A stretch of DNA of 46,231 bases, taken from assembly GCA_903889905.1 (NCBI GenBank), contig CAISZI010000001.1, positions 1-46,231 of the forward strand. Reading direction: 5' to 3'. Position numbers and translations under genes: made by a program. The stretch's first letter is position 1. Every line of letters starts with the position of its first letter. Shown piece by piece: positions 27,889 to 33,318 of the stretch. The notes under the pieces were generated by a model. The model had not been told where the DNA came from. It was given only the letters and a program-made list of their open reading frames with translations, and did not search any database. This DNA is from Candidatus Wirthbacteria bacterium (GTDB lineage Bacteria; Patescibacteriota; CG2-30-54-11).

Positions 27889-28875
27889 TTACGAACTCGC
27901 CACCGCCAGATTGTGGATTCTTTCGAGTAGTTTGCGGCGGCGCAGGTAGCGTTCCACCTTGATCGGGACAAGGCGGCTCCAGGGCTGCCCCAGCACCATG
28001 CAGCGGCGAATATTGGTGCTGCTGAGCTCGGTTTCGTCAATCAGCTGGGCGTGAAAGACCGGGATTTTGGCCATTTCAAAGAGTTCGGTCAGTTTGTCGT
28101 CGTTGGTGTAGACCACAGCAAAGGGCTGGCAGAGCTCTTTGACATGCCGCAGCCATTCTTCCTGGTTTTCGATGGTTTTAAGGCCGACGATTTTGAATGT
28201 TGCCTTGATTGGTTCGACGTCGGCTTCGCGTTCATCTTCTTTGAGTGACAGCGTCGACAGTACATCTTCGAGCATTTCGCGGCGTTCATCCCAGGAGAGT
28301 GGATTGTGGGCAGTATGTTTCTGGTCACTGTCGATCACGCCAATGGTGACTTTGGGGAAGCGGCTGGCGATCTGGCGCAGGGCTTTGGTGTGGCCTTTGT
28401 GCAGGGGTTGAAAATGGCCTAGAAAAAGGGCGGTTTCGGTATCGAGTTCGCGTTCACGCAGCTTGATGATCGTGCCCAGTGCGCCGTTGACAAAACTGCT
28501 GCCGGTATCGGAACTGAATTCTTTGGCCAGTTCCACGCCTTCATCGATTGCGACTTTGGGGGGCACGGATTTGGCAAAGTAGAGTTCAAAAATGGCGATG
28601 CGCAGAATATTGAGGTCAATTTTGGGCAATTGCTTCAGTGGCCATTCCGGCGCACAGCGAGAGATCATGATATCGATCTCGTTCAAATTGGCGGGAATGC
28701 CTTCGAGCAAAAAATGCAGCAATTCTTCGTCCAGCAAATCGAGCAACATGTCGGCGCGGATGCGTTTGGCTGTGGCGATCAGGTCGCACTGGTGGAAACT
28801 GGCTTCAAATAAGGCTTGGAGCACTAATTTGCGGGATTCGTGGCGCAGGTCGACTTGCTGTTTGAGGGGCTTCAT
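27889..28875 (-). CDS. NusB fused to NadM-like NMN adenylyltransferase
   Basis: One continuous frame joins two normally separate proteins. Residues 1-140 are NusB, the antitermination and rRNA-processing factor: RHESRKLVLQALFE near 11-24, IDLNILRIAIFEL near 86-98, VAIDEGVELAKEFSSD and FVNGALGTI near 128-136. Residues about 147-328 are a nucleotidyltransferase with GHFQPLHKGH at 153-162 and SSTNIRRCMVLGQPW at 285-299, the pattern of archaeal-type NadM that makes NAD from NMN and ATP. The linker is about ten residues, with no start codon or ribosome site at the junction. AGGA lies seven bases before the ATG. NadM as opposed to a related nucleotidyltransferase is likely but not certain. Confidence 0.88.
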   Translation of the reverse strand: MKPLKQQVDLRHESRKLVLQALFEASFHQCDLIATAKRIRADMLLDLLDEELLHFLLEGIPANLNEIDIMISRCAPEWPLKQLPKIDLNILRIAIFELYFAKSVPPKVAIDEGVELAKEFSSDTGSSFVNGALGTIIKLRERELDTETALFLGHFQPLHKGHTKALRQIASRFPKVTIGVIDSDQKHTAHNPLSWDERREMLEDVLSTLSLKEDEREADVEPIKATFKIVGLKTIENQEEWLRHVKELCQPFAVVYTNDDKLTELFEMAKIPVFHAQLIDETELSSTNIRRCMVLGQPWSRLVPIKVERYLRRRKLLERIHNLAVASS

Positions 28876-28918: not shown

Positions 28919-28998
28919 AATCCCCCTGCGCCCCCTTTACAAGGGGGTATGAACAGAATCTTAGTCCGACCCCCTTGCAAAGGGGGTGCAGGGGGATT
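28919..28998. repeat. Palindromic MITE-like repeat, copy 1
   Basis: Two 31-base arms (28919-28949 and 28968-28998) are nearly perfect inverted repeats around an 18-base spacer. Each arm contains its own small palindrome, CCCCCTT then AAGGGGG, so a cruciform or three-stem RNA can form. It nearly fills the gap between ftsK and the nusB-nadM gene. A second copy is at 33207-33295. Confidence 0.85.
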
Positions 28999-29003
28999 TG
29001 CAT

Positions 29004-31367
29004 TTAACTTTCATATTCATCAAACAACGACTCGCTGTCATCAATGGGTTTGGCGGGTGGGAGAGTTTGTGGAAAAGCGGCGGGAGGTGGGGTTTCGCGA
29101 ACATTGCCCGTTGGCAGCGAACGTTTGAGCACTTCGCGCGGTTTGGAGCCATCGGCAGGGCTGAGGCAGCCTTTGTTTTCCAGAATATCGATCAGGCGGG
29201 CAGCACGGGCATAGCCGACTCTGAGTCTCCGTTGCAGCAACGAAGCGGAACCACGGCCTTCACGCACAATTTCATTGAGCGCGTCCTGGAGTAATTCATC
29301 ATCCATGTCGTCATCGTTGCTGCCGCCACCATTTTTCATATTGACCGGTTGGCTGATGACTTCGTCGAGGTAGGTGGGCTCGCCCTGTTTGGACCAGAAT
29401 TGGACGAGGCGTTCAACTTCGGTGTCTGAGACAAACACGCCTTGCAGCCGGACCATTTTACCTAAATCGGGTGCGTGGTAGAGCATGTCGCCGCGGCCGA
29501 GGAGTTTTTCGGCGCCGTTCTGGTCCAGCACGACGCGGGAGTCCATTTGCGAGGCCACGGCAAAGCAGATGCGGGTGGGAATATTGGCTTTGATCAAACC
29601 GGTGACGACGTTAACCGATGGCCTTTGGGTGGCGATGATGAGGTGAAGACCCGTGGCACGGGCCTTTTGGGCCAACCGGCAGATGGACTCTTCAACCTCC
29701 ACCGGGGAGGCCATCATCAGGTCGGCAAGTTCGTCGACAATGATGACAATGTAGGGGAGCTGCGCCATCGCATCGCGCTGGGCTTTGTTGTAGGATTCGA
29801 TGTTGCGCACACCGTGGCTGGCAAAAATCTGGTAACGGCGTTCCATTTCGTCAATCGCCCATTTGAGTGCGCTCAGCGTTTTGTCTGGCCGGGTGATGAC
29901 TGGCGTGAGCAGATGCGGAATACCATTGAAACGGGACAATTCCACGACTTTCGGGTCAACCATGATCAGTTTGAGTTCGTCGGGATTGTATTTGTACAAA
30001 AAGCTGCTGATCACTGAGTTGATACAGACCGATTTGCCCGAGCCGGTGGCACCGGCAATCAGCGCATGCGGCGCATTGGTGAGGTCGGAAACAAACACAT
30101 CACCTGAGACATTGCGCCCGAGAGCCATTGGTAAAAGCTTCTTGGGGTTTTGGAATTCAGAGGTTTGGATTAAACCGCGCAGGTTGACTGTGGTGGCTAC
30201 GTAATTGGGAACTTCAATACCAATGTACGGTTTGCCGGGAATGGGGGCTTCAATGCGGATCTGGGAGGTCGACAAGGCAAGGGCGAGGTCGTTCTGTAAC
30301 GCGGTAATCTTGGCCACTTTGACGCCGGGTTCGAGTTTTAGTTCATACTGGGTAATGGTGGGGCCGATGTTGTGGCCGACGACGCTGGCTTCCACGCCGA
30401 AGTTTTTGAGGGTACGGTTGATGATGTCTTTGCGCAGATGCGGACTTGCGGTTTCGGCCAGGCTCTTGGCCTGTGGATCCAGCAGGTCGATGGTAGGTAA
30501 AAACCACACCGACGGATGAATTGTTTTGGCCTGGCTCGCAGCAGGGAGAACGGTGGTGGAGAAGTCAGGCGGAGTAGCTTCCGCTTTGGCCAGGGCATGT
30601 TTTTTGAATGACACTGTACTGGGTTCTACGTAGGGGCCTTCACTGTCGTCAACGATTTCGTCCTCCTCGGCTGCGATGGCTTCAGCGTCCTCTTCCACGG
30701 CTTCGTCTGCGGCGACATTGTGTTCGATCAGGGCATCGTCTTCGTCGTCGCCGAATTTCTGGAACCATTTGACTTTGAGCCATTCCCAGGCGTCGGCCAG
30801 TTTTTCACGAACCATGGAAAGGGCTTTCTGCAGTCCCGTAAATCCGTTGGTGAGAGACCAGTTGGTGAGCACGATGAGGCTGACCACGATCAGGGCAATT
30901 TCTACCACGCCGGTGAAAAAAGTCCCAAGCACGCTGCTCAGCAGTTTGCTGACCGCGTAACCAATGATACCGCCCCGCGTGGTGGCGACCATATAGCCGG
31001 AGGAGATTTTGCCAAGTTCAAGCAATCCGAGTGCCATCAAACCAATCAACAGCGCCCAGAGGATGCGGCTGCCGCGTTCCCAGAATTTGGCCGGAAGCAA
31101 TAAGAGTACGGTGATGTAAAAACTGATCAGGCTGATCAGCCAACTGCCGACGCCAAAGGTGCCAACCAGGAATTCCCGCAGGCCATAGCCAAATTCACCC
31201 TGGCTTTTGTACATGACGATCAGACTCATCAGCCCAAAGACAAAGGCAAAGACCGAGATGATCTCGCGGATCAGTCGCTCTTGTTCTTTTTTGGTGCGGC
31301 GGTGCATGAGCACCTTTTTCACGCCAGCATGGCGGGTGGGAGTGGAGCGGCGTTTTTTACGCGGCAC
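29004..31367 (-). CDS. ftsK: FtsK/SpoIIIE DNA translocase
   Basis: FtsK pumps chromosomal DNA during division. The N-terminus has four hydrophobic segments (about residues 35-190), then an acidic linker (about 215-260). The motor has its P-loop AGATGSGKS near residue 438, Walker B (YIVIIVDELADLMM) and the TGLHLIIATQRPSV motif. The C-terminal gamma winged helix (about 700-765, with RLRVGYARAARLID) reads DNA polarity sequences. Length 787 is normal. The first start is a GTG at 31367 with GAGGG six bases upstream; an ATG at 31307 with AAAGGTG is the alternative. RNase J lies just upstream. Confidence 0.96.
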   Translation of the reverse strand: MPRKKRRSTPTRHAGVKKVLMHRRTKKEQERLIREIISVFAFVFGLMSLIVMYKSQGEFGYGLREFLVGTFGVGSWLISLISFYITVLLLLPAKFWERGSRILWALLIGLMALGLLELGKISSGYMVATTRGGIIGYAVSKLLSSVLGTFFTGVVEIALIVVSLIVLTNWSLTNGFTGLQKALSMVREKLADAWEWLKVKWFQKFGDDEDDALIEHNVAADEAVEEDAEAIAAEEDEIVDDSEGPYVEPSTVSFKKHALAKAEATPPDFSTTVLPAASQAKTIHPSVWFLPTIDLLDPQAKSLAETASPHLRKDIINRTLKNFGVEASVVGHNIGPTITQYELKLEPGVKVAKITALQNDLALALSTSQIRIEAPIPGKPYIGIEVPNYVATTVNLRGLIQTSEFQNPKKLLPMALGRNVSGDVFVSDLTNAPHALIAGATGSGKSVCINSVISSFLYKYNPDELKLIMVDPKVVELSRFNGIPHLLTPVITRPDKTLSALKWAIDEMERRYQIFASHGVRNIESYNKAQRDAMAQLPYIVIIVDELADLMMASPVEVEESICRLAQKARATGLHLIIATQRPSVNVVTGLIKANIPTRICFAVASQMDSRVVLDQNGAEKLLGRGDMLYHAPDLGKMVRLQGVFVSDTEVERLVQFWSKQGEPTYLDEVISQPVNMKNGGGSNDDDMDDELLQDALNEIVREGRGSASLLQRRLRVGYARAARLIDILENKGCLSPADGSKPREVLKRSLPTGNVRETPPPAAFPQTLPPAKPIDDSESLFDEYES

Positions 31368-33133: not shown

Positions 33134-33206
33134 GCGAAACTCCTAAAAAGAAAAATAAAAGAGGTCGAATGGGTAGGGGCGATGCATGAATCGTTTGAGG
33201 GGACCG

Positions 33207-33295
33207 AATCCCCCTGCGCCCCCTTTACAAGGGGGTATGATAGTTTTAAAAAAGGCAGTGATCCGACCCCCTTGCAAAGGGGGCGCAGGGGGATT
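33207..33295. repeat. Palindromic MITE-like repeat, copy 2
   Basis: The arms 33207-33237 and 33265-33295 match those of copy 1 almost base for base, but the spacer is 27 bases and unrelated. It lies between rnj and the Lon-like AAA+ gene, 23 bases beyond the stop of the latter. Confidence 0.85.
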
Positions 33296-33318
33296 CTCCC
33301 CTGACTTAGAATCTATTG

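Follow-up and report, generated by a model that had tools for sequence, protein, structure and literature searches.

NusB is fused to an NadM-like nucleotidyltransferase domain in three genera of Wirthbacteria

A single gene of the Wirthbacteria encodes NusB and an NadM-like nucleotidyltransferase domain on one polypeptide, and we confirmed that this fusion is real and conserved across three genera of the family. The gene lies at positions 27,889 to 28,875 on the minus strand of the window, by which we mean the whole 46,231-nucleotide stretch of DNA that was analysed, and belongs to a 1.99 Mb draft genome of the Wirthbacteria family within the CPR (Patescibacteria). As the best explanation we propose, with a rough probability of 0.45, one bifunctional protein that joins a working NusB to a diverged, HxGH-dependent adenylyltransferase of NadM descent serving NAD synthesis. 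The fusion is built from known families and is apparently undescribed; our literature search found no published description of a NusB-NMNAT or a NusB-Nudix fusion, which is not proof of absence.

The reading frame begins with ATG, and translation of the window sequence gave 328 residues with no internal stop codon in the minus-strand frame from 27,889 to 28,875; around the NusB/NadM junction this frame has no further start codon. The initial annotation had described NusB and an NadM-like enzyme in one frame, separated by a linker of ten residues, and Pfam and NCBIfam matches to both halves proved its domain assignments right. The NusB domain covers residues 11–138 (28,462–28,845, minus strand); here Pfam NusB (PF01029) matched residues 12–137 with 97.2 bits (cut-off 23.1) and TIGR01951 scored 115 bits, above its equivalog cut-off of 88.35. 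A linker of about ten residues between the two domain matches (residues 139–147, LRERELDTE; 28,435–28,461, minus strand) leads into the NadM-like domain at residues 148–324 (27,904–28,434, minus strand), where Pfam CTP_transf_like matched residues 150–291 with 56 bits (cut-off 21). The more specific profiles scored 110.7 bits (PRK01153, cut-off 127) and 102.9 bits (TIGR01527, equivalog cut-off 181.2). Judging by these matches, the C-terminal half is clearly NadM by homology, although it stays under the equivalog cut-offs. The closest solved structures are 1f9a, the NMNAT of M. jannaschii, for this half and 1tzt, a NusB, for the other. PF01029 matched only once in the window's genome, making the fusion protein its only NusB.

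All three available Wirthbacteria genera carry the fusion in a single frame, and the proteins of the other two genomes, G001 and G002, are 54% and 51% identical to the window protein. When public-genome contigs were scanned with an alignment of the three fusion sequences, only two relatives matched, their proteins being those of G001 and G002; a scan with the single window protein as query gave no match. The initial annotation had named recurrence across a clade as support for the fusion, and the architecture does recur. A sequencing indel or assembly artefact at the junction can be excluded because the same fusion is present in two further genera: the junction is the same in three independently assembled genomes whose proteins share 51–55% overall identity, leaving this explanation a negligible probability. 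Synteny is also kept downstream, where the rplS gene for L19 (27,371–27,805, minus strand) and then rnhB follow the fusion gene in the window, in G001 and in G002. Upstream, an ftsK-type gene (29,004–31,367, minus strand) directly precedes it in the window and in G002, and an insert of other genes intervenes in G001. Between ftsK and the fusion gene, outside the latter, lies a palindromic element of approximately 80–90 bp (28,919–28,998, with no strand assigned), seen again at 33,206–33,296, each arm carrying CCCCCTTTRCAAGGGGG. The arm motif occurs in 12 copies in the genome, compared with none for a reversed control, and the element looks like a dispersed MITE/REP-like repeat.

Comparison of the three fusions with 22 stand-alone NusB proteins from CPR revealed that almost every strongly conserved NusB residue is retained in the fusions, including R11, H12, R15, D68, W78, P79, D87 and R92, and likewise E97, E112, E115, K118, F128, N130 and G131. 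In a mixed alignment of the fusions with stand-alone NusB and NadM sequences the NadM N-termini were misplaced on the NusB half, so only its NusB columns were used and it did not serve for structure. In the window's genome, the rRNA leader (G000, contig 42, locus L152) contains an exact boxA of the E. coli type, TGCTCTTTAACA, located 129 nt upstream of the 16S gene, and a complete 9/9 boxA core appeared in only ~0.6% of leader shuffles (chance about 0.006). A TTGACA-like promoter was also seen upstream of this 16S gene. The best boxA-like site in the rRNA leader of G001 matched at 8/9 positions and was not significant, a point against the bifunctional reading, and no 16S gene was found in the G002 genome. 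The retained residues and the boxA suggest that the N-terminal half is probably a working NusB.

Next, we considered the C-terminal half. Its structure, modelled from 16 related sequences, reached a pLDDT of 90.9 and aligned with M. jannaschii NMNAT 1f9a at TM scores of 0.84/0.92, so that the predicted fold of this half is that of an NMNAT. We then compared motifs in an alignment of the three fusions with 20 other NadM sequences (23 in total). The window protein has GHFQPLHKGH at residues 153–162 (28,390–28,419, minus strand) and SSTNIRR at 285–291, both within the range 153–291 that the initial annotation had given for them. The HxGH motif is intact in all three fusions, each of which keeps G153, Q156, P157, H159, G161, H162, P192, R198 and W241 of the residues found in the other NadM sequences. 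Trp241 (28,153–28,155, minus strand) is the pocket tryptophan, equivalent to W87 of the M. thermautotrophicus enzyme, and is invariant in 23 of 23 aligned sequences. The arginine of the GRFQP motif (Arg-8 in M. jannaschii, Arg-11 in the M. thermautotrophicus enzyme) is present in 20/20 of the other NadM sequences and is replaced by His, Gln and Glu in the three fusions, the residue in the window protein being His154. The SxTxxR motif is intact as SSTNIR in the window protein (residues 285–290; 28,006–28,023, minus strand) and reads SCHEVK in G001 and KCLEIR in G002, T287 and R290 being altered among the relatives. Retention of key residues of both halves across the clade, which the initial annotation had also put forward, therefore held in part: the NusB set and HxGH are kept, whereas the GRFQP arginine is lost in all three proteins and SxTxxR is changed in two of them. 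An apparent loss of 'GS' after strand 2 (I/A/C and D/G/G at positions 181–182) is not claimed, since it depends on the alignment, in which a shift by a single residue would bring D-S/G-A opposite G-S.

Published mutants offer a guide to the weight of these changes. In E. coli NadD the H19A mutant retains only 0.62% activity, and R46A, at the position that archaeal Arg-8 occupies, was the most damaged active-site mutant in that study (PMC1249556). In yeast Pof1 the histidine of the T/HxxH motif is essential for NAD synthesis and the arginine of SxxxxR is largely dispensable (PMC13191266). Together, these mutants suggest that the fusion has its more essential motif intact and is missing a phosphate-binding arginine. 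Among the three fusions, the divergence of the NMNAT half is 2.1–2.5 times that of the NusB half. For similarly diverged pairs of stand-alone NadM and NusB the ratio is 1.7–1.8, a mild excess for the fusions drawn from few data points, and the closeness of the two ratios gives no sign of free decay in the NMNAT half.

The same motifs bear on a second reading, which we consider possible and rather doubtful. Here the domain derived from NMNAT would have lost its housekeeping role as an enzyme and, recruited through covalent fusion, would serve the rRNA transcription complex structurally or by binding a ligand, as SuhB does in E. coli apart from its catalysis, with NadD making NaAD. The association of SuhB, an inositol monophosphatase (IMPase), with elongating RNA polymerase at rRNA depends on NusB, and its mutants have a phenotype separable from IMPase activity, a precedent for an enzyme in a NusB-dependent rRNA complex (PMC4807359; PMC6614801). 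Replacement of an otherwise invariant arginine by three different residues, and a broken SxTxxR in two of three proteins while the predicted fold is intact, would be consistent with such a role. On the other hand, HxGH and the pocket tryptophan are kept in all three fusions, and the NMNAT half evolves at a rate close to that of stand-alone NadM.

The NAD pathway of the window's genome weighs on both sides of this choice. Genes nadB, nadC and nadA are clustered and nadE lies elsewhere, nadB having been recognised by reading its translation without a family search. Adenylation of the NaMN made by NadC must require some enzyme, and the only other NMN/NaMN adenylyltransferase in the genome is NadD. 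A salvage-only role for the fused domain, with NMN coming from NAPRTase/NAMPT, was rejected given that the genome has no PF04095 match. Wirthbacteria NadD passes its own equivalog cut-off of 112 with 131 bits (136 in G001), as would be expected if NadD made NaAD and the fused domain had left catalysis. Against this, each of the three genomes has a NadD with TVAY or TIAY (T[VI]AY) in the place of HxGH, with both motif histidines lost. Considering that NadB, NadC, NadA and NadE are present and NadD is without HxGH, the fused domain would be the better candidate for the adenylyltransferase. This preference holds by motif, and by family score NadD would be the better one, a conflict that we regard as the main uncertainty. 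The loss of the GRFQP arginine, the changes at T287 and R290 in the relatives, the missed NadM cut-offs (TIGR01527 being passed by none of 380 CPR genomes) and the NadD cut-off that was passed would all count against reading the fused domain as an adenylyltransferase. The NadD genes (L044:2021-2608 in G000, L045:1931-2551 in G001 and about 2322-3041 of L046 in G002) adjoin acyl-CoA carboxylase genes in the three genomes: in G000 and G001 they are flanked by biotin carboxylase and carboxyltransferase, and in G002 the gene follows biotin carboxylase.

In the bifunctional protein that we propose, the NusB half would bind boxA in the rRNA leader together with NusE/S10 and would contribute to the transcription and folding of rRNA. 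The NMNAT half would rely on HxGH to couple ATP to the mononucleotide of nicotinate or nicotinamide. With neither HxGH histidine left in the separate NadD, this half would supply the adenylyltransferase step for the pathway of NadB, NadC, NadA and NadE. We infer both activities, as well as the division of labour with NadD, and the proposal includes no coupling between the halves. Regulatory coupling, in which NMN, NaMN or NAD in the C-terminal half alters the affinity of NusB for S10/boxA so that rRNA tracks NAD/ATP, seems improbable to us, and the suggestion of the initial annotation that NAD level is linked to rRNA transcription stays a conjecture. Coupling would agree with the retention of the covalent join in three genera or more, although in other CPR the genes for NusB and NadM lie apart, and with two halves that are each fold-competent by homology; however, a full-length model made from the three sequences was poor (pLDDT 59.8), and therefore no interdomain contact can be claimed.

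To place the fusion in its wider distribution, we inspected the reading frames of the listed matches in searches of 59 relatives and 380 CPR genomes. Among the matches listed, none outside the Wirthbacteria family had NusB and NadM on one polypeptide. NusB was present in 354 of the 380 CPR genomes sampled and an NadM-type match at E ≤1e-6 in 36, none of the 380 passing the TIGR01527 cut-off. Eighteen genomes of this set outside Wirthbacteria carry NadM homologues of at least 100 bits, so the statement of the initial annotation that NadM is mainly archaeal needs softening. NusB was near none of the 18 NadM loci checked. A motif scan of 57 other CPR NusB loci found rnc nearby in 45 and rplS in none; most CPR NusB proteins end near residue 145–170 and adjoin rnc, unlike the fusion. 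The idea that the fusion arose from a nusB-nadM gene neighbourhood of the kind that other CPR might show was accordingly rejected, as no other CPR locus examined has the two genes side by side.

In a tree of the NadM domain the three Wirthbacteria sequences formed one clade (support 99/100) on a long stem, and neither the CPR nor the archaeal sequences provided a resolved sister group. One well-supported clade fits a single fusion before the three genera split, and the tree is consistent with the fusion having arisen only once, at that time. A single origin, the few genomes involved and the presence of rplS downstream in all three of them would also suit an ordinary fusion without coupling, in which a lost stop codon and a lucky junction gave a protein kept as harmless or for co-expression beside rplS. 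The initial annotation had likewise suggested that the fusion might only fix dosage beside rplS. We give the explanation without coupling a small chance, for nusB and nadM are adjacent in no other CPR locus examined and other lineages have independently acquired nucleotide-related domains on the C-terminus of NusB.

One such case, a second C-terminal fusion, NusB-Nudix, was seen among the long NusB frames in the CPR phylum sample (L014:1468-2334 in G051, L017:1069-1914 in G014, L022 and L119-L127). Pfam confirmed both domains in six proteins of several families, and six more were recognised by eye. The Nudix box is intact, GKVEEGETWQEAAIREVKEETGI, in family f13 (L014 and L017) and degenerate in most others, a mixture that the SuhB-like reading of the Wirthbacteria domain would also accommodate. 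Since Nudix and NMNAT are different folds, NusB-Nudix and NusB-NMNAT arose independently, both at the C-terminal end of NusB. Another CPR lineage has an NadM-like domain fused to the quinolinate synthase NadA (L077:1486-2850, G272). A broader pattern, in which the NusB of Patescibacteria is a recurrent platform for covalently attached nucleotide domains that, within the rRNA transcription complex, sense or make NAD, NMN, ADP-ribose or dinucleoside polyphosphate and so tune rRNA output to nucleotide status, is an unlikely extension of these observations.

The fusion shares features with several known systems. Like NusB (TIGR01951; PF01029), its N-terminal half passes the family cut-off and keeps the conserved residues, and it differs from NusB by a 177-residue C-terminal NMNAT domain. 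It resembles archaeal-type NadM (TIGR01527, PRK01153; 1f9a, 1ej2) in fold (TM 0.92), HxGH, pocket tryptophan and an E value of about 1e-30, and differs in scoring under the equivalog cut-offs, in the replaced GRFQP arginine, in the SxTxxR changed in two relatives and in the attached NusB. The bifunctional NMNAT/Nudix enzymes (PRK05379; 2qjo, 2qjt, 2r5w) also fuse NMNAT to another domain, but theirs is N-terminal, its partner is an ADP-ribose pyrophosphatase and NusB is absent. The NusB-Nudix proteins of CPR likewise have a nucleotide-related domain at the NusB C-terminus, whereas Nudix has an unrelated fold and occurs in other lineages. SuhB of the E. coli rRNA complex resembles only the alternative in which catalysis was lost, sharing metabolic-enzyme ancestry and work with NusB on rRNA, and differs as a separate protein with the unrelated IMPase fold.

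These genes may be a trap for annotation, with a NadD that passes an automated cut-off without HxGH and an HxGH domain hidden under the label 'NusB'. The NusB-Nudix parallels in other CPR families mean that the same question can be approached in several independent cases. If the enzyme half has decayed, the fusion would be a case like SuhB, in which the machinery of rRNA transcription has taken in a domain of enzyme descent. If both halves are functional, a lineage with a reduced genome would have its rRNA antitermination factor and one reaction of NAD synthesis on the same polypeptide, offering a directly testable link from cofactor status to ribosome production.
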